Shown: positions 2,776 through 29,000 of the stretch, in pieces
How the letters are laid out: the number at the start of each line of letters is the position of its first letter
Numbering within the stretch: the first letter of the stretch is position 1
From: Haliclona indistincta
Taxonomy: Eukaryota > Porifera > Demospongiae > Haplosclerida > Chalinidae
NCBI GenBank assembly: GCA_964017065.1
Contig: OZ024787.1
Span: 6,958,996 to 7,022,995 of the forward strand
Length of the DNA: 64,000 nucleotides
Direction: 5' to 3'
Position numbers and translations under genes: made by a program
The notes under the pieces: model-generated
Told to the model about the DNA's origin: nothing
Seen by the model: only the letters and a program-made list of their open reading frames with translations
Databases searched by the model: none

Positions 2776-5169
2776 GATCCACTGATCAAGAACAAGTATG
2801 GTAACACTGCATTATACTATGCTAGCCCATACTATGATATCATAAAACTATTTCAACCATTCGAAGAATGTAAGATAGTCTTCCCAGTCCACACTTTCAC
2901 CAAATTAATTCTTACTGGAGACAGTAGAGTAGGAAAGACAACCATGGCTAAATACCTCATTCACCTAGCTCATTCAGATATGCCTACATCAAATATTGCG
3001 GTTGAAAGCTTCACAGCAGGAATTATTCCACATCACATAGAGAGTAAAAAACTTGGAAACTTTGTCATTTATGACTTTGCTGGACACCAAGAATACTATT
3101 CGAGCCATGCTGCCATACTTGAGCAAGTAATGCAAAGGTCGACAGCCATGTTTTTTTGTTTGATAGATCTGAGTAGAACCAATGAGAGTAACTGTCAGTC
3201 GCTCAACTACTGGTTAGGTTTTATCAACAATGCTTGCAAAGCAGCAGATGAGAGATCACACATAGCAATCATAGGAAGTCACGCTGATCAGGTTACTGTA
3301 TTGGCGAAGGAGAAGATCTTAACAATGCTGCAGACAATGGCAAGTCGGAGAGTAAGGCGCCAAGAGATGCTGGATGCATTTCTATGGACTGTCGCAGAGC
3401 TGAAACTGATGCTTCACGCCGTTTTATTTCTTTACTGACTAATAGCCAGAAAGCCATTGCTGGCAGTCAGCCTGTCATTAGCTATTATAGTCACGTTGTC
3501 TATGCATTTTTGCGTACGAAACTAAAAGTTGTAGGCTGTACACTACAGGACCTTATTTCTGCAATAACTATGGAAAACGATTCTTCACTCCCAAATGATC
3601 CATCTGTTCTCAAAAAAATTCTGACCACTCTTAGCGATAAAGGTCTTATTCTCTTTATACAACATCATTACTTTAGCTGGATTGTAGTGAAAACGGAAAT
3701 CTTGCTAAATGAAATTAATGGAACACTGTTTGCTCCTTGTCAATTCAAAGAGCACCGTGACATTCTTGCCAGCAACACTGGTATAGTATCCACCTCCAGC
3801 CTACTCAGTGTATTCCCTCACCACAACATAGACATGCTTGTTGGGTTTCTGCATCCATTGAATTTCTGCCGACCAATTGATTCTTTCGCACTAGAAAATA
3901 CTAACCTACAAATTTCTCACTCCAATACAGGTGATCTTTTATTTTTTCCTGGTCTTGTTAAGTCAGAGCAACCAGGCAACCTTGTAAAGTATGGAACACT
4001 GACATTTGGCTGGTGTCTAGGATGTATGGATCGTAATGAATTCTTTAGCTCTCGACTTCTTCATGTACTCCTTCTCTCAGTGGCTTACAAGTTCCCTTTA
4101 GTCAATCCAGGTCTAAATCGAATGTGTAAAATATGGAGAAGTGGAATTTTCTGGAAAGATTATGATAACATCACAACAGTTGTGGAAGTTCTTGACAACA
4201 ACCGGCGGGTACTGTTGGGCATGTCAGGTGATAACACTAGACCAATTGAGCATGCCAAACTTCATAGTTCTCTGATTGCACTAGCTCGTGAACTTCAACA
4301 AAAACATTGCTCACATCTCAGTGTACGAGACTTTCTAATATCTCCTGATCTAATGAAACAATACCCTCTAAATTGTCTTCCTGGATCCAATCTGTTTGAT
4401 ATCCGTCACGTTGCTGAATGTGTCCTTCTCCACAAATCAGTGATTCCCTGTTATGAGGATAGTTGTACATGCCTTCCTGTTGAATCACTTCCATTTGAGC
4501 CATATTACTGTCTTAGTTCTCTCTCAGTCTGTCAGTTACTTACCCCAAACATGGCCGACCAGCCAGTTCTTGAGACCATACTTTGCGATGTACAGAAGCA
4601 CTGCTGTCAAACCAATTTGAAGAAATTTGAAGTGTACAAGGAACTGAGGGAGCATGTGGACAGTCTAAGTCTGTTTGCAGGCAGGAATCCTCTTGTGAGC
4701 ATTTCGGTGTTGATTTATAGAACATAACACAGTGACTTATGTATGTGTTTACAGGAGATTGCTGAGCTGAAGGAAGAGGATCTTCTAAGTACATGTAGCA
4801 GTGATACAAATGCTGCTTTTGGTGATGAAGCATTAAGTACCCTCAGTAAGTTAAGTCAGCAAGCAAGAACAACACTGTTTCATTGATGCACATTTAGGTA
4901 TTGGCAATTTGTTTCAAGTAAAGATATTCTTAAAGGGTGTGGTTGACTGGCAGTCTCTGGGCCTAGCCTTGGGACTCCTCTACCCTACGCTAAAAAGAAT
5001 AAAGAAGGAGCAACATGGAGACATCAATGACTGCATGATGGAGATGTTGGCAGCTTGGCTGCAGCAGTATGACAATGTCTCCCAGAAAGGTCTCCCATCC
5101 TGGACTATGCTGAAAACAGCTCTTGAGAAAATTGAAGGGAAGCAACTAGCTAGTAAAATTACCATCTGA
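2776..5169 (+). pseudogene. Ankyrin-ROC-COR-Death (ROCO-type GTPase) gene, truncated and frameshifted
   Basis: The plus-strand reading from 2776 gives the end of an ankyrin repeat (KYGNTALYYA), then a ROC GTPase: P-loop GDSRVGKTT at about 2917-2943, G3-like DFAGHQEYY near 3070, and GSHADQ near 3280. A COR-like region follows (about 3450-4690). Splice sites then join 4694 to 4755-4845 and 4898-5169, phase-consistent, adding a C-terminal Death domain (DWQSLGLALG to PSWTMLKTAL). ROC-COR-Death proteins are cytoplasmic signalling switches in immunity and death pathways. Two lesions are visible. The upstream ankyrin exons are missing because TANGO6 relic abuts at 2775/2776, and the first in-frame ATG (2944) lies after the P-loop. 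Near 3380 the frame shifts from LDAFL to MDCRRAETDASR, with no intron signals. Probably a pseudogene, unless either lesion is an assembly error. Confidence 0.75.
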
Positions 5170-18983: not shown

Positions 18984-21201
18984 TGTTGTGACCTCTCATG
19001 CAGAGACTTGTTGGCAGACAGACACTATTTTTATAAACAATGATCTTGTATAATTGTATCATGTGACCATGTTCACCTCTGCCTATTTATGATGCTACAC
19101 TGTCTGCCTGTGTTCTGTTCTGCTAATAATACTTTGCTGCCGGTTTTTACATCGCTGTCAAACTGCTAGAGTAATTGATCAAACTTCGTCCGGTATCAAT
19201 AATCGGCAATCCGTATGCCGAGAGAAAAAGGACTTTCTAGTCAGCGACTGTATGTTTCAAGAGCTGTTCATGTCCCTATAAAGTAGTGATAATTATAAGC
19301 GCTGATCTTTGTCAGAGACGGAACTGTGATACAAAGGAAGACGCTGACGAATAGTATCAATCTTCGTCATACAGGGACTTAACTCCGTCTTTGTGATTTA
19401 TTGCTAAGCCGCAGCTGGCGCTGCTAACAAAAACACTTGCATGCAACTCCCACTAGTTAGCTCTACAAGGAAGCACAACGGCGCCAAACTACAAGCGTCC
19501 TCTTTCCTGTAAGGCATGACGAATTTACGAACGAAAATTGCTGACTATGCAATTAATAACTATTATGTTTTATGTCAAATATTAGAGAGAGGATTATAAT
19601 TTTTAATGATTGAGGATTTGAAAGTGCTGAATAATAATTATTTCAGATCTTCCTGTTGACAACTGTAATAAATCAATAAAAATAATTGTAATTTCATTAT
19701 TATGTACCTCCTCTTATTAACTTGCTCTTGTACAGTTTAGATCTGAATCTGCATGTGTTTACAAGTACATGTATCAAGTTATATTTTGGTTAACAATTTC
19801 AACATACCAACAGGAGGTTTCAATTTCTGAGTACGTGTAACACCAACAGAGCTGTCTGAATCTGACAAGCACATGTCAAAGGTTAACAATTTCAACATAC
19901 CAATAGAAATCTTTGACTTCACTCCTCACTGAGTACGTGTAACACCACCAGAGCTGTCTGAATCTGACAAACACATATCACATGATATTTTGGTTAACAA
20001 TTATTGTCAAGAAGTCTTCGACTTCATTCCTCGCTGAGTATGTGTAACACCACTACGTTAATAAGAGGAGGTACATAATAATGAAATTATCCTCAAACAA
20101 TCATGTTTATTGATTTGTTACAGTTGTCAACAGGAGGATCTGAACTATTGTTCGACACTTTCAAATCCTAAAAATTATAATCCTCTCACTAATATTTTTG
20201 ACATAAAACTTAATTTTTATTAATTGCATAGTCAGCAATTTCCGTTCGTAAATTCGTCATGCCTTACAGGAAAGAGGAAGCTTTGCAGTTTGGCGCCGTT
20301 GTGCTTCCTTGTAGAGCTAACTAGTGGGAGTTGCATGCAAGTGTTTTTGTTAGCAGCGCCAGCTGCGGCTTAGCAATAAATCACAAAGACGGAGTTAAGT
20401 CCCTGTATGACGAAGATTGATACTATTCGTCAGCGTCTTCCTTTGTATCACAGTTCTGTCTCTGGGAAAGATCAGCGCTTATAATTATCACTACTTTATA
20501 GGGACATGAACAGCTCTTGAAACATACAGTCGCTAACTGGAAAGTCCTTTTTCTCTCGGTATACGGATTGCCGATTATTGGTACCGGTGTCACAGGAAAT
20601 CTGGCCGCTAGGACATTTTGCAGCTGCGACAATTTTTCCTAGGAAATTCGGTAGCGGCGTGTCGGCTCAGAGGCAAAGTTTCCTAGGAAATACAGCTGCG
20701 TTTAGGAAATCGTGCCGCTATAGCAATCGCCGGTACGCAGGTCACGAAACGGTACGAGTAGGTAGAAACGCCACGGAATGATCTCTATATCTGCTGTGCT
20801 ACATAGCCTAACTCAGACCAACTCATGCACTCAGTGTAACAACTACTAATATAACAACTTAGCAGTTCCACATGGAGCTAGAAAATATCCAGCGCCTAGC
20901 TTGATTTGAATCATGGGGCGTGTATAATTATTGTCAACAGAAACAGAACACAACGATAGATAAATAGTCAAGTGTTAATGATTAATAAGTGATACAGGTA
21001 ATGAAAAACAAAAGGAAAACAATTATTACAGCAAACAGTTTGACGTCAACAGTAAAGATTATTTATCTCATTGCTCATCATGGTAGTCTGGATTGACAGA
21101 GATTGTATGGTCTTCTGCTTGGATCAATACTCTGTCCTATAAAGAAAATATTAATAGGCGATAATCAAAAATTACCAACTTCATTTTGTTTTTGTGCAAT
21201 T

Positions 21202-24200
21202 TTAACCACTAACATGTTGGATAAGACGATCCATAACAAGTGTGAGTTGCATCATATTTTCATCAGTATTTGTCTCGTTTGCATACCATATCTCCAAGTC
21301 TCTACGGCTCTCTAAATGTGCAAGAATGACAGTGTCATAAAACACTGAAAATTGATGTAACATAATTTGGATACGCAAACATTTCCAGATCTACGATAGT
21401 TATTTATAGCTCATTGAGATGACGCACCATACCTTCTCCAATGTCGCGAAGGTGTTTTATCACTTTTAGTGCTATTTCACGATACTGCTCATAAGTGATC
21501 AAGGTCTTGGGTATCTGTATTACATAATCCAGACAATAACATGAAAAAAGAACTTCTGCAAGCATAGAAACTCAACCTTTTTCGGAGGACTCCCATCTTG
21601 AGCTATGTCTGCACATTGCCTATGCAGGCAGACTTGCTTTTTCTTGCCTGCTCCTCCAAACTTGACCATATCTTTGCAGTTTATACACTGCCCGCAATCT
21701 TTCCTAGTGCACCCAGCACAACTACCACAACGTCTTCTTCGTTTTCTTGAAGTCTTATGAGCAGTTGCTTGAGATGGGGCCTGCATAGGAGGTCAATAAT
21801 TCAACTGCAAGTATTGTCAGGAGTTTATCATCCTATCAAAATAATAAGTGCAGTAGTAAATATATTTCCGCCGCTCAGCATATTGCAAAAACTTCCTTCT
21901 ATAAAATTTTGTACATTACAGCTGCACAGTCAAGCATGAACATACAATGTGCCCGTTTATTTTCTGTTTTTCCACAGACGTATGCTCCTTAATTGGAATG
22001 GCTATTATAATAATTTTCAACGTACTGTATAAGGGTGACTTGGTGTTGATGTTTGCTTGTTTGTGATACTCTGTGTGAAGTACATGTACAAGGTGATAAT
22101 TCAAACAGCTTAAGTAATTGCATGTTTACCGAATGAAGATGCTGAGTTAGCTCTTCTAGGACTTTTGTTCCACCTTGTGTAACTCTTTCTCTCAAATCTA
22201 TGACCCACTCACAGAGATTGTCTACTTGTTCTTGTGTGAGAGTCACATGACCGGCACCAAAAAGAGAATACTGGCAAACGTTGTGTTGAGTAAGAATCCA
22301 AAGATTTAGTAGAGTATTGCACTTAATGACAGAGGATCCCAGCGGAATGTTGTTTTTCTTAAAGGTATCAAATTCCTCCATCAGACAATTATCCATGATC
22401 AGAAAGTCACGATAGCTCTTTATCGGTACTTGCTGATGATATACACGACTTTCCTCCCAAAGAAGTACATCTAAGTCGATGTTTAGACCAAATTCACCCC
22501 TAGTTTTGTCCAAATGAGGTTCCATCTACACAAAAGTGTTAATGAGTTTAGTAGGTACTATAACATGACTTACGTTTACATCATCATCATCATTAGAATT
22601 GAAAGCATATTCTTTACTGCCAGTTGTCCACCTCCGGTACAAAGAGCTGCTGTACAATTGGTTTTCCAACATCTGCAAGCTCTAATAATTGCATTAAATT
22701 ATTGTTGTAATTATTTTAATTTTAGAAATCACTTACCTCTTTCTGATCAGATAGAGTCATGAAATTGGAAGTGAGTGTATTAACAGCTGTGAAAGAGCTA
22801 TTAGCTGAACTAGTAGAAGGAAGGCAAAGACCTGTAGTCAAAGTGGAAGGTACTCGAGATGAGAAATCACAAGCAGTTGCTGAGGTGGAAGGCGATTGAG
22901 GAGAGCGCTGGAAAAACTGCTTCAGACGGGAAGTGTTTACCTTCTGTGATAATACTTTCGATGGATTACCTTGGTCACGTAGTCTGTAAGTACCCTTTGG
23001 AAGCACTTCATGAATTACATACGGGCCAGTCCAGTTGGGAGCTAGTTTCATTCCTTTCTTGGAATGCTTTTTGCTGTTCATTAACAACACAAGAGATCCA
23101 ACAGTATACCGAACAATGTCTTTACAGTGCTTTGCGTCATAGTACTTCTTCTGTCGACTCTGAGCAGACTTGATGTTTTTAAGAGCTTTTTTCCGAATCC
23201 TGACTAATCTTTCAAGAGACGTATCGAAATCCAGCAAGTCGTCTGAAGAGAAGTCTGAGTCATTACCTGGAGCTGAAGCAGTAGAACTAGGGGTGTTGAG
23301 ATTAAAGTTGCTAGAAGATAGAGGAGCACTACTGGGTGTGCAAAGAACTTGGAGGTCATGTGCTGATGAACTACTGTTGTGGGCGGAGTCAGAGAGAGAA
23401 GCATTAGTAGGAGCTGTAGTTTGGTCACTACTGTTGCAGGCGAGAGAAGCATTAGTAGGAACTACAGTTTGATCACTACTGTTGCAGACGAGAGAAGCAT
23501 TAGTAGGAGCTGCAGTTTGGTCACTACTGTTGCAGGCGAGAGAAGCATTAGTAGGAGCTGCAGTTTGATCACTACTGTTGCAGGCGAGAGAAGCATTAGT
23601 AGGAGCTGCAGTTTGATCACTACTGTTGCAGGCGAGAGAAGCATTAGTAGGAGCTGTAGTTTGGTCACTACTGTTGCAGGCGAGAGAAGCATTAGTAGGA
23701 GCTGCAGTTTGATCACTACTGTTGCAGGCGAGAGAAGCATTAGTAGGAGCTGCAGTTTGATCACTACTGTTGTGGGCGAGAGAAGCATTAGTAGGAGCTG
23801 CAGTTTGATCACTACTGTTGCAGGCGAGAGAAGCATTAGTAGGAGCTGCAGTTTGATCACTACTGTTGTGGGCGGAGTCAGAAAGAGAAGCATTAGTCGG
23901 AGCTGCAGTTTGTTCACTACTGAGGGTGGAGCCATTGTTGAAATCAGAGTAATGAGAATCGTTCTCACCAAGATCTGCACCTAGGTTAAACTCTATAGGT
24001 AACCTTGCCTGTCTTCCGAATACAAGTACAAAAGGTGACTGCTTAGTTGAGTCTTGACGAGAAATTCGGTAGGAAAAAAGAATCGAATCAATGTACAAAT
24101 CCCAATCTGTTTGCTCCTCTTCCACAAACTTCAAAAGTTGTCGTTGGAGTGTTTGATTAAAGCGTTCATCCAATCCATTGCTTTGAGGATGATAAGCACT

Positions 24201-25077
24201 TGTTAAATGGCTCCTGACACCCATTAGCCGGCAAAGCTCATCATTCACCTATTATTTGAAATATTATAGTCGAAATAGTATTAGTGTTATTTTTTGATGT
24301 ACCTGATTGACAAACTCTCTTCCTTGATCAGAAATCTTGATGCGGCAGCATCCGTGGATCGTGAAGCACTTAAACAAGAACTCTGCAATACCATCTGCTC
24401 CTTTGTCTTTTAACGCTGTTGCCTCAGGCCATTTGGAAAAGAGGCAGCTGACAGTCATTATGTACTTGTTGCCTCTGGGTGTCTCAGGAAGAGGTCCAAT
24501 CAGGTCAATTCCCACAGTGTCCCATACTTCTGCCTTTACAGGTATTGGGTGAAGCTCAGCTGTTGTTTTGTCAAATTTCCTAACGTGTAAGCACAATAAT
24601 TATTTTACACATGAATTGTGTCGATATCATGTACCTGTTTGCTCTTTGGCACTTTTCACATGTTCGGCAAAAATTCTTAACATCCTCGACAATTCCCTGC
24701 CAGTAAAATCGTTCTGTAATCTTAGCAAGAGTCTTGTCCCTTCCAAAATGCCCCCCTCCTAGCACACTCGAATGACACTCCTCCAGCACTTGTGATTTTT
24801 GACAGGACTTCACTACCTACACCAGTGATGATTTAGCAGATAAACTAACAAGTTGTCAATATAATATAGTAACTAGCTCATGCACCCACCGTGAGTTACT
24901 CGCACTGACCTGCAAATCTACTTGCCTCTTCTTCTCCCTGTGATACAGCAAACCGTTTTTGATTAAAAAGCTCTTCCCTTTCCTTCTCAAACCGTCTTTC
25001 TCTGCCTTGCTGAATTCTGAAGGGAATGTACCGCTGCAACAAAGATTGTACAGTCTGTCGTACAATTCGGGCTCCAT
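21202..25077 (-). CDS. Ginger1 transposase with C-terminal CXXC zinc finger
   Basis: Nine exons, all GT-AG, phases consistent: 25077-24910, 24816-24635, 24579-24303, 24248-22737, 22681-22574, 22525-22130, 21780-21577, 21514-21433, 21311-21202; 1,012 aa. Exons 2-4 hold an integrase-like H2C2 zinc domain (ECHSSVLGGGHFG...CRTCEKC) and an RNase H-fold core with Asp in GIDLIGPL, Asp in KISDQGREF and Glu in GLDERFNQ. Exon 4 then has about 11 tandem 16-residue repeats (SSDQTAAPTNASLACN) and an integrase-like C-terminal part (KLAPNWTGPYVIHEV). Exon 7 encodes a CXXC zinc finger (CGSCAGCTRKDCGQCINCKD, then MVKFGG and a CLHRQC pair) preceded by KRRRR. Expected role: cut-and-paste of this element in the nucleus. 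The C-terminal fusion to CXXC is inferred from splice phases; two separate transcripts are possible. Confidence 0.85.
23375..23930. repeat. 48-bp tandem repeat coding array
   Basis: About 11 near-identical 48-bp units inside Ginger1 exon 4, encoding the 16-residue Ser/Thr/Asn-rich linker. Because the period is a multiple of three with few stops, several antisense and shifted frames are also open; those are shadows. Confidence 0.95.
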
Positions 25078-25346
25078 TTTATACTGCAGCTGCAGACGGA
25101 ACACGCGTAGCAGGTGTGAATCAAAACAGCGGCACTAGTGCGCGGTAAGCTGCAGAATTTCCTAAACGCGACCATTTTTCCTAGGAAATAGTGCCGCTGA
25201 TGCTGCCAAATTTCCTAGGAAAAATTGTCGCAGCGGCAAAATTTCCTAGCGGCCCGATTTCCTGTGACACCGGACGAAGTTTGATCAATTACTCTATCTC
25301 GATAGTGCGAACCCTGAGTATTACAACATTACACTGGGCAGGAGCG

Positions 25347-26096
25347 ATGTTGGGTGCAATGAAAGAGTTTGACCCGGACAGAGGAAACTGGACCGAGTAT
25401 GCCGAGAGGTTGAAACACTATTTCACTGCTAACAACATTGAAGATGCAACCGTGAAGCGGTCAGTACTCATCACAGTTATGCATGGGCGAAGCATGCATG
25501 CAGCATATGCTCGTTTGAGAAGGAACGTGGCTCCAGCGAAGGTGGACGACAAAACCTTTGACGAACTAGTACAAGTGATGTCGGACCACTGTAACCCAGC
25601 GCCGTCTGTTATCATGCAGAGATACAAGTTTAATACACGTGGAAGACAGCCGAACGAGTCAGTGATGACCTACGTGTCGGAACTCAGAGCTCTGGCAGAA
25701 CACTGCAAGTTTCCGGCAGACTTTCTGGACGAACTATTGCGAGACAGATTGGTGTGCGGGATAAATGACCAGCAAATTCAGCGACGACTGCTGGCTAGAA
25801 GAGACCTCAAATTACAAGATGCGATAGACGACGCAATGAGCTGTGAAAACGCTACCAAGGACTTCAAGGCCTTGCAGTTGACGCCTGAAGATGCAGCTCA
25901 CCCGCTACTCAAGGTGAAAATGGGTAGAGGACAGACACCATCTCCTCCAGTACGTTGTTTTCGCTGCAACAAGACAGGTCACAATGCTGCATCGTGTCGA
26001 TTCAAGTCTGCATGTGCGCTGTCACCAGTGCCGGAAAAACAGGACACATCAAGGCAGCTTGTCGTTCGTCGCAGCGTCCAGCTAAAGGCGGAGTGA
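25347..26096 (+). CDS. gag of the gypsy element
   Basis: Starts MLGAMKEFDPDRGNW 13 bases after the 5' LTR. A capsid-like retrotransposon Gag domain (about residues 10-180) is followed by a CCHC zinc knuckle (CFRCNKTGHNAASC, about 25967-26006). Beyond about 26013 the reading frame is suspect: a second knuckle is readable only by moving through the other two frames (CHQCRK at 26020, then KTGHIKAAC). Forms the nucleocapsid/particle protein of the retroelement. Confidence 0.85.
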   Translation: MLGAMKEFDPDRGNWTEYAERLKHYFTANNIEDATVKRSVLITVMHGRSMHAAYARLRRNVAPAKVDDKTFDELVQVMSDHCNPAPSVIMQRYKFNTRGRQPNESVMTYVSELRALAEHCKFPADFLDELLRDRLVCGINDQQIQRRLLARRDLKLQDAIDDAMSCENATKDFKALQLTPEDAAHPLLKVKMGRGQTPSPPVRCFRCNKTGHNAASCRFKSACALSPVPEKQDTSRQLVVRRSVQLKAE

Positions 26097-29000
26097 AGAG
26101 TCTGAAAGCTGAGGATGATTTCTCGCTCAGTCCACCAGTACCCGAAGAAGAGTACCAATTGTTTGCAGTCGAAGCTGAGGACGTCGAGTGTAAACCACCG
26201 TTGACAGTACAGATGCAGTTGGATGCAGTTGGATGGAGTGCCACTGCGGAGGTGGATACCGGTGCCGCTATCTCAATCATTTCAGAAAACACCTTCAAGC
26301 GGTTGTGGAAGAACAGAGAACTTCAGAAATCATCGGTAACACTCAGGACATACTCTGGTGAGCCTCTAAAAGTACTGGGAGTTTTTACTGTCCTAGCAGA
26401 GCATGGGAGTAACAAGAAAGAGGTTATTCTCACCGTTGTCAAAGGCTCTGGGCCTTCACTAGTGGGTCGAAATTGGCTTGATAAGTTCCCGTTCGACTGG
26501 GGTCAGATTCACCATGTGAATAATGCATTGCAGGAGGTATTGTCTCGTCATTCCTTAGTGTTTTCTGCAGAATTAGGAGCGCTGAAAGACTTCAAAGTAT
26601 CACTGGACGTAGATGAGACAGTCAAACCAAGATACTGCAAGGCACGACCAGTTCCATATGCAATGCGAGCTTTAGTGGATGAAGAATTGGACAGACTGGA
26701 GAGTTTAGGTGTGATCGGGCCAGTGACACATGCCAAATGGGCTGCGCCGATTGTTCCTATCCTCAAACCAGACAAGAAATCCGTTCGAATTTGTGGTGAT
26801 TTTAAGCTGACTGTGAATCAAGCAGTCAAAGTGGATCGATATCCTATTCCCCTAATTCGAGATCTGTTCACTGGGTTGAATGGAGGCAAGTTCTTCTCTA
26901 AGCTAGACCTATCTCATGCCTATCTACAATTGTTAGTCGATGACAAGGCCAAGGAGCTTCTCGTTATTAACACTCACAAGGGTCTATTTCAGTATAATAG
27001 GCTACCGTTTGGAATTGTATCAGCTCCGGGCATCTTCCAGCGGACCATGGAGAATCTCCTGCGAGGCATCCCAAGAGTTGCTGTCTATCTCGATGATATT
27101 CTGATCTCAGGAGAGACTGAAGAAGCTCATCTGCAGACCCTAGACCAAGTACTTGAGAGACTTGAGAAAGCTGGTCTTAAACTAAAGGAAGGTAAATGCT
27201 CCTTTTTGTCTTCTTCTGTGGTGTATCTTGGCCATAAAATTGATGAGCATGGTCTTCATCCGACTCAGGTCAAGATCGAAGCAGTCTTAGCCGCCCCCGA
27301 GCCTAAGAATGTAACAGCCTTGAAATCTTACTTGGGTCTGCTAAACTATTATGGTAGATTCACGTCTAATTTATCTTCTACCCTCGCCCCATTGTAAAAG
27401 CTTCTGAACAAGAACGCACATTGGCGTTGGACCAATGTAGAGAAGCAAGCATTCCAAGCTTCGAAAAAACTGTTAACAGAAACCCCTGTATTAGTCCATT
27501 ATGACCCGAGCAAAGAACTGATCCTTTCTTGTGATGCATCTGCATATGGTTTGGGTGCTGTGCTGGCGCACAAATTCCCTGATGGTAGTGAGAAGCCCAT
27601 TGCTTTTGCATCTAGAACTCTATCTCCAGCAGAGAAAGGATATTCCCAATTAGAAAAAGAGGGATTGGCTTGTGTTTTTGGTGTTAAAAACTTCCATGAA
27701 TATCTATTTGGGAGAATGTTTTCTTTATATACAGATCACAAGCCCTTGTTGGGTCTCTTGGATGAAGATAAATCTATTCCTGTTCAAGCTTCCGCTAGAA
27801 TTCAGCGTTGGGCACTCACTCTGGAGATGTATCAATATCAGCTGAAGTTCAAGACATCCAACCAGAATGCCAATGCTGATGCCCTCAGTCGTCTTCCGCT
27901 AACAACTATGCATTCTCCGACGCCACAACCCACGGAGTTAGTTCTCATGATGGAAGCATTGGACGGGGAGATGCCTGTGTCGTCACACCAAATCAAAACC
28001 TGGACAAGAAGAGATCCAACGTTATCCAGAGTACTACAGTTTGTGCAGAAGGGATGGCCGTCCACAGTGAAAGACGAGCAACTCAAGATCTATGAAAAAA
28101 AAAAGTTGGAATTGTCGTGTCAACCTGTTATGGGGTAGTCGTGTGGTTGTTCCTCCTCAAGGGCAGCAGGCTATCCTTCGTCAATTGCATTCGTCTCATC
28201 CTGGTGTGGTTCGCATGAAGCAGCTGGCTCGTGCCTACATCTGGTGGCTGAGTATGGACAAAGATATTGAGAGACATGTCCATCATTGTTCAGCCTGTCA
28301 AGTGAATCAGTCTTCCCCTCCTGTAGCACCTGTTATACCGATTCGTTGGCCTTCACGACCATGGTCTCGTATCCATGTTGATTTGGCTGGTCCATTTCTG
28401 AATCATACATTTTTGGTGGTCGTGGATGCTTACACTAAGTGGTTGGAGGTACACATTCTACCCTCAGCAACCTCAAGTGCTACTATTACTGGTCTCAGAA
28501 AGATCTTCGCCACATTTGGAGTTCCCGAGATCTTAGTCTCTGATAATGGACCCAACTTTTCGAGCCAGGAATTTGAGACATTTCTAAAACAAAATGGAGT
28601 GATTCACAAGACATCAGCACCATACCATCCAGCCTCGAATGGTTTGGCAGAGAGAGCTGTGAGAACATTCAAACAAGGAATCAAGAAAATCACGAAAGGA
28701 TCGCTGCAAGATCGACTATCTCGATTCCTGTTTGGATATCGTAATATACCACAGACTACAACTGGACACTCTCCTGCAGAATTGATGTTTACCCGGCACT
28801 TGCGTTCTCCTATGGACTTATTGAAACCAGACTTGAACAGAAGGATGGAGGAGAAACAAGATGAACCAGTGGATCCAGTTCGAGAATTCAAACCACGTGA
28901 TCTGGTGTTTGTCAAGAATTTTCCACCAGGATCCAAACCCAAGTGGTTACCCGGAGAGATTAAATCAACTGATGGTCCTCGCTCATTCGCTATATCACTA

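Follow-up and report, generated by a model that had tools for sequence, protein, structure and literature searches.

We analysed a 64,000-nucleotide stretch of the genome of the demosponge Haliclona indistincta (contig OZ024787.1; hereafter the window, with positions counted from its first letter). At 20588-25269 it holds an apparently intact Ginger1 DNA transposon of the cut-and-paste type, whose predicted transposase carries a CXXC zinc finger close to its C-terminus. Both termini of the element read TGTCACAGGAAATC, and CCGG adjoins each side as a 4-bp target-site duplication (TSD). Counted with the TSDs, the inverted arms span 72 nt and match at 93% (20584-20655 and 25202-25273), so that the terminal inverted repeats (TIRs) proper are 68 bp long; weaker internal inverted repeats, one of 53 bp, lie beside them. 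The element thus has the marks of Ginger1, namely a 4-bp TSD of CCGG or CCGT, 5' TGTNR termini (TGTCA at both ends here) and TIRs of about 40-270 bp, and the initial annotation, which had called it a Ginger1-type transposon, is confirmed. Feature positions are collected in Table 1.

The transposase gene is read from the minus strand. Its nine exons are separated by eight introns, all with GT and AG at their borders, and join in phase into a predicted protein of 1,020 amino acids (aa) with no internal stop; the same nine-exon arrangement had been proposed before, with a length of 1,012 aa that is corrected here. An alternative model with a tenth exon, of 1,039 aa, is also possible. The protein would comprise, in this order, a YPYY-like motif (an F-P..F..Y pattern near residues 18-45, recognized by eye and without a profile), an H2C2 zinc domain, a DDE core, a linker of 16-aa repeats, a GPY motif, a middle domain, the CXXC domain and a short tail. 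The H2C2 domain, the Gypsy-like DDE core and the tandem-repeat linker of the initial annotation are all borne out. The catalytic residues are D142, D201 and E237 (spacing D58D35E), and the rve match probably falls below the curated Pfam cut-off because the domain is split over exons. The linker consists of real 48-bp repeats, and the array varies between copies. WTGPY at residue 615 represents the GPY/F motif of Ginger1, with a weak SH3_Tf2-1 match (E = 0.02). Predicted structures were poor, with a predicted local distance difference test score (pLDDT) of 45 for the middle domain and of 56 for the CXXC domain alone, and were unusable for a fold search.

Exon 7 encodes a complete type-1 CXXC domain, with the full set of eight zinc-binding Cys and the KFGG motif that had been noted earlier, and with a KKKQ loop; its best match in the PDB is DNMT1. 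Eight Cys, KFGG and a KQ or RQ reading pair are shared with the type-1 domains of DNMT1, KDM2, MLL and CFP1, but those are host chromatin proteins, whereas the window protein is a transposase. According to one study, the KQ or RQ pair reads CpG in type-1 domains, which require both grooves of linker DNA to be accessible (PMC3685328). By its kept reading residues, the domain of the transposase appears to be a putative reader of unmethylated CpG. No OTU or Ulp1 domain was matched by Pfam in the eight open reading frame (ORF) segments scanned; the CXXC domain is present instead.

Table 1. Features of the Ginger1 element in the window (o/e, observed/expected ratio)
Feature	Position	Strand	Basis
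TSD CCGG, left	20584..20587	.	direct reading
TIR, 3' end of transposase gene, CpG-rich	20588..20655	+	inverted repeat; CpG o/e 1.36 over 20588-20760
Exon 9, C-terminal tail to stop (to 21214 with tenth exon)	21202..21344	-	gene model
Exon 8	21433..21514	-	gene model; identical in the C3 copy (L069)
Exon 7, CXXC zinc finger	21577..21780	-	Pfam zf-CXXC PF02008, E = 6e-15; PDB DNMT1, E = 5e-13
Exon 7 landmarks	first Cys codon 21729; KFGG 21663; KKKQ 21645; last Cys 21615	-	
Exon 6, bulk of Ginger middle domain	22130..22525	-	similarity to P0008/P0012; no Pfam family above cut-off
Exon 5, middle domain begins	22574..22672	-	gene model; similarity to P0008/P0012
Exon 4, third catalytic residue, 48-bp repeat linker, GPY motif	22737..24248	-	gene model; repeat family D1; Pfam rve_3 and SH3_Tf2-1, both below cut-off
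Tandem 48-bp (16-aa) repeats within exon 4, approximate limits	23408..23912	-	repeat detection
Exon 3, DDE core, first two catalytic Asp	24303..24579	-	Pfam rve PF00665, E = 8e-5, below cut-off
Exon 2, H2C2 zinc domain	24635..24816	-	Pfam Integrase_H2C2 PF17921, E = 7e-22
Exon 1, start codon and YPYY-like motif	24910..25077	-	gene model; motif by eye against published pattern
TIR, 5' end of transposase gene, CpG-rich	25202..25269	-	inverted repeat; CpG o/e 1.22 over 25097-25269
TSD CCGG, right	25270..25273	.	direct reading

Among the matches listed, the closest by identity to the integrase part are the Ephydatia muelleri Ginger1 proteins P0003 (69% identity, 93% of the integrase part covered) and P0004 (75%, 73% covered); proteins of sponges occur repeatedly among the best matches. 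The middle domain matches two further Ephydatia Ginger1 proteins, P0008 (E = 2e-16) and P0012 (E = 2e-17), in a BLAST comparison with 121 proteins; being common to these, it is taken to be an older part of Ginger1. The window element has a CXXC domain, whereas P0008 matches Ulp1 above the Pfam cut-off and PHD below the cut-off; Ulp1 is matched weakly in P0003 (E = 0.06), and a PHD finger is in the precomputed domain list of P0004. In the predicted protein, the CXXC domain is thus in the place of the Ulp1-like protease and/or PHD finger of the Ephydatia proteins.

In the accessible part of the original description, Ginger1 elements are like the window element in CCGG duplication, TGTNR ends, TIR length, H2C2 and DDE domains, GPY motif and the presence of introns, but have at most four introns compared with eight here (Bao 2010, PMC2836005). 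The Ginger1 table in that part gives OTU, Ulp1 or Ulp1 plus PHD tails, no CXXC and no sponge. Ginger1-1_BF is described there without an OTU or Ulp1 domain at the C-terminus, which makes such a tail a usual but not universal trait, and it is treated here as variable and non-defining.

The Pfam CXXC family was not found among the 120 listed matches of 314 relatives of the integrase part. Protein searches with the C-terminal third (E up to 0.001) returned only KDM2, with its CXXC domain, and a fragment of a near-identical element, and a CXXC pattern scan of the 121 proteins found only KDM2, itself from the C-terminal search. Neither a Ginger1-CXXC nor a MULE-CXXC association was found in the open-licence literature searched, and CXXC was not found in the accessible part of the Imagin paper (PMC12863088). 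The element is a real Ginger1, a class already known, and its CXXC tail is new with respect to that literature.

Four close copies of the integrase exons, the window's included, are present in the 144-Mb genome (contigs labelled C1, C3, C5 and so on). The copy on C3 (L069, 11303732-11308599) matches the window element at 4,468 of 4,605 aligned bases (97% identity outside gaps). Its exons follow in the same order, AG/GT borders are kept at exons 2-8, and its CXXC exon has 8/8 Cys. The lengths of exons 1, 3, 4 and 9 change the frame, and the acceptor of exon 9 fails to align, which makes this copy broken; with its exon order unchanged and its CXXC exon intact, it shows that the presence of the domain in the window element is not due to chance. 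In both copies, the CXXC domain lies inside the TIRs on the coding strand. The two CXXC exons differ by 3 substitutions in 204 bp, too few for a selection test. A copy on C5 at 0.68 Mb is 99-100% identical but ends directly before the CXXC exon, and no 3' TIR was found there; a 1,212-bp stretch identical to the window element suggests recent movement or duplication. The copy on C1 at 0.94 Mb is rearranged and retains a CXXC fragment near its 3' TIR. The whole domain is therefore found in only two copies, and a fragment in one.

The initial annotation had linked the CXXC domain to the CCGG target, which contains CpG. This link does not hold. Two Ginger1 families of the same genome, F43 (L043-L046 and relatives) and F47, have no CXXC domain within 8 kb of their integrase copies (four and one, respectively) and share the target: CCGG adjoins 7 of 14 F43 ends (CAGG 5, GCGG 1, TCGG 1; some are duplicates) and 7 of 10 F47 ends (CAGG 2, CTGG 1), so that all ends of both families, duplicates counted, have CCGG or a one-base variant. 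Of 29 ends in the window TIR family, 13 have CCGG and 9 a single mismatch; the other 7 were dropped, either for two or more mismatches to CCGG or for poor quality of the end. In the accessible part of the original description, Ginger1 targets CCGG in 75% and CCGT/ACGG in 24% of 112 Hydra elements, and Hydra families with OTU or Ulp1 tails target CCGG/CCGT (Bao 2010, PMC2836005). Because F43 and F47, with no CXXC domain near their integrase copies, and the Hydra families with OTU or Ulp1 tails use CCGG, the domain is not needed for this target, and we reject it as the reason for the target. As a separate observation, CAGG replaces CCGG at 10 of 53 ends over the three families (some not independent); it is no simple product of CpG decay and may be a second target.

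We then asked how CpG is preserved around insertions, using the CpG o/e of 350-bp flanks as a proxy for methylation. Of 40 TIR matches, 20 places were fetched besides the earlier copies (those not taken include C5:2.90, C1:16.23, C6:5.32, C1:13.51 and C1:15.46 Mb), and the 22 ends kept by the TSD filter represent 19 insertions. L085, which nearly duplicates L084, was excluded but had still entered the pre-filter comparison; the flank of L047 itself was too short, and the F43 flanks of L139, L140 and L144 were dropped as duplicates. The background consisted of CCGG sites in the window (31) and in 20 random 1.2-kb regions (15), 46 in total. In a first look with the window alone as background, the mean was 0.92 (30 flanks) versus 0.75 at CCGG flanks (p = 0.0016). 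After filtering, the window TIR family has a mean of 0.96 (n = 19), compared with 0.64 for the CXXC-less families (F43, 11; F47, 10; Mann-Whitney p = 0.0004) and 0.68 for the background (46 sites; p = 0.0001); one-sided permutation gives 0.00025 and 0.0001, respectively. Before the filter the values were 0.92 (23) and 0.64 (21), with nearly equal GC content (0.448 and 0.436), and with exact CCGG duplications only they are 0.98 (10) and 0.65 (12) (p = 0.003). The CXXC-less families do not differ from the background (p = 0.75). A repeat is common to four of the flanks; when three or all four of these are left out, p is 0.002-0.004 against the CXXC-less families and 0.001-0.002 against the background. 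The flanks of L077, L086, L090 and L093 have 16-mers in common, which may mean that some copies went into one and the same CpG-rich repeat.

The insertions of the CXXC-type TIR family thus lie in CpG-preserved DNA, the pattern that an enzyme preferring unmethylated CpG would leave. This gives modest support to the earlier suggestion that the transposase senses CpG at its target; the part of the comparison that uses CCGG sites of random regions alone is not robust, as set out below.

In 24 kb of random DNA the CpG o/e is 0.68, with TG at 1.18 and CA at 1.24, and depletion of CpG with an excess of TG and CA is the signature that decaying methyl-CpG leaves. At C2:3.557 Mb, a DNA-methylase match follows a CXXC match of the same strand at a distance of about 2.4 kb, which is the order found in DNMT1; four stops interrupt the methylase match, as expected from introns or decay. 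Another DNA-methylase match (C10:7844087-7845175) has an open frame of 384 aa. The dinucleotide bias and the DNMT1-like locus suggest germline methylation in this sponge. The initial annotation had pointed to demosponges such as Amphimedon, which are reported to have heavily methylated genomes; as the GC content here (41-43%) is above that of Amphimedon (about 36%), the methylation level of that sponge is not to be carried over. CpG methylation varies among sponges, with 81% of CpG methylated in Amphimedon queenslandica and 37% in Ephydatia (PMC7385117).

We hypothesize that the two parts of the transposase divide the work. The integrase core alone would choose and cut the 4-bp CCGG site, while the CXXC domain would tether the transposase complex to accessible DNA rich in unmethylated CpG; new copies would then land in hypomethylated DNA and thereby escape silencing. 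We assign this reading a probability of roughly 0.45, and beyond the identity of the domains we infer every step of it. Many eukaryotes silence transposons by CpG methylation, and a transposase reading the absence of this mark would, if the hypothesis is true, let the element choose open DNA and avoid silenced DNA. The chromodomain integrases of some retrotransposons read histone marks; a cut-and-paste transposase equipped with a reader of DNA methylation would reach the same end by another route. With CXXC-bearing and CXXC-less Ginger1 families that share the CCGG target, the genome holds natural controls and the idea is directly testable.

Several observations weigh against CXXC-guided insertion. 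Compared with the CCGG sites of random regions alone, the filtered difference is smaller (0.96 versus 0.77 at 15 sites, p = 0.04); it weakens further when both flanks of these sites are used (23 flanks, mean 0.81, p = 0.09) or when the shared-repeat flanks are removed (p = 0.11-0.16). When only the 100 bp next to the insertions are compared, F47 too is rich in CpG (1.08 versus 1.18) and the contrast is weaker (p = 0.04). Flank CpG is 1.03 (11) in the subfamily with the closest ends and 0.87 (8) in the other. Most tested insertions are partial or non-autonomous copies whose ends are only 77-91% similar to those of the window element, so another enzyme may have moved them; this applies equally to many F43 and F47 ends. 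The CpG pattern could also arise from selection acting after insertion. The sample is small, with two CXXC-less families only, and CpG o/e is a proxy for methylation. A distant copy at C1:12.98 Mb (82-83% over the 5' part) has no CXXC part in the DNA fetched. Finally, the attachment of the CXXC exon to the integrase exons, at the exon 6-exon 7 junction, is a prediction from splice sites and is unproven.

The CpG content of the element's own ends raises an alternative in which the CXXC domain binds the TIRs only as long as these lack methylation, and transposition would be switched off once the host methylates them. The ends have a CpG o/e of 1.36 and 1.22 versus 0.49 in the interior, and GCCGC/GCGGC sites recur in them alongside TTTCCTAGGAAA palindromes; across 19 TIR ends, 10 CpG sites give 173 readable cases, of which 124 are CG, 21 TG/CA and 28 other. 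Self-binding is possible on these grounds, but the TIR of the CXXC-less F47, a family with one integrase copy, is equally CpG-rich (1.31; F43, 0.73-0.74), and rich ends do not track the domain. We therefore do not accept CpG-rich TIRs as proof of self-binding and regard this alternative as unlikely.

CXXC domains are not confined to Ginger1 in this genome. Genome-wide there are 97 CXXC matches (40 places were fetched singly, besides earlier ones) and 52 matches to the MULE core, 50 of them above the curated cut-off. In 36 of the 97 cases a MULE core on the same strand lies 1.4-3.7 kb upstream of CXXC; three matches are near window-type Ginger1, one has a MULE core nearby but not in this order, and the 57 unclassified matches will include host genes. 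Proximity was judged against 49 Ginger-like integrase places with short open frames, picked by eye from lists of 140 and 150 entries. Seen from the MULE side, 38 of the 52 cores have CXXC within 8 kb. With randomly placed cores, the average is 0.56 CXXC and the maximum 4 in 1000 trials. Three MULE/SWIM transposons (L071, L072 and L073) resemble the window element in carrying CXXC C-terminal to the catalytic part, but their catalytic core differs (PF10551); L072 has a middle-domain-like piece downstream (38.6% over 57 aa), and in all three a stretch recognized by eye from the translation, without a Pfam score, follows the CXXC domain and resembles an OTU protease. Ten CXXC matches have one common score, and two that were compared are 99% identical. 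In a tree of 30 sequences shorter than 50 aa, with mostly weak support, the Ginger1 CXXC pair is not nested within the MULE sequences; no origin can be claimed from it.

The presence of the domain in two unrelated transposase superfamilies of one genome is a broader finding than the single element and may be the more important one. We speculate that CXXC readers were taken up by at least two such superfamilies, Ginger1 and MULE, and that the Ginger1 reader steers insertion to CpG-rich DNA that is free of methylation, with the integrase core still preferring to cut at CCGG, which would amount to methylation-guided transposition; we put this broader proposal forward more tentatively than the hypothesis for the Ginger1 element.

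The MULE elements also bear on a second alternative, in which the CXXC domain acts after insertion by recruiting or shielding chromatin, keeping a promoter unmethylated or expressed as CXXC host proteins do, and has no role in target choice. OTU, Ulp1 and PHD families act on ubiquitin, SUMO or histone marks, so that the tails of other Ginger1 proteins fit such a role, as does the CXXC domain of MULEs, which are not known to have a CpG target site. On its own this explanation does not predict the CpG bias of the insertion flanks, and the CpG-depleted interior of the element reveals no protection of its body; we consider it somewhat less likely again than self-binding.

It is improbable, to a slightly greater degree, that two proteins are made, with the transposase ending in or after exon 6 and exon 7 starting a small CXXC protein of its own. 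An in-frame ATG is found at the exon 7 acceptor (PPMQAPSQ), an ORF at 21520-21792 has its ATG just before this acceptor, and exon 6 stays open for 46 codons beyond its donor, but the donor of exon 6 agrees in phase with the acceptor of exon 7, and both sites are kept in the C3 copy. That the domain is a captured passenger without function, the flank bias coming from retention near genes or from chance in a small sample, fits the few copies with CXXC and the few families compared but seems very improbable, given that both whole-domain copies retain all eight Cys and an intact reading loop, although the C3 copy is otherwise broken, and that MULE families of the same genome retain CXXC too.

The Ginger1 copies L043 (360-1088, minus strand) and L046, which have no CXXC domain, end in a Cys-rich stretch, without a Pfam match in L043, that resembles a tesmin-type CXC domain; this end is another possible DNA reader. 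Next to the window element, reading frames of a Gypsy-like retrotransposon directly adjoin it on the plus strand (25185-27397), and the Ginger1 element may have inserted in or near the 5' region of this retrotransposon.

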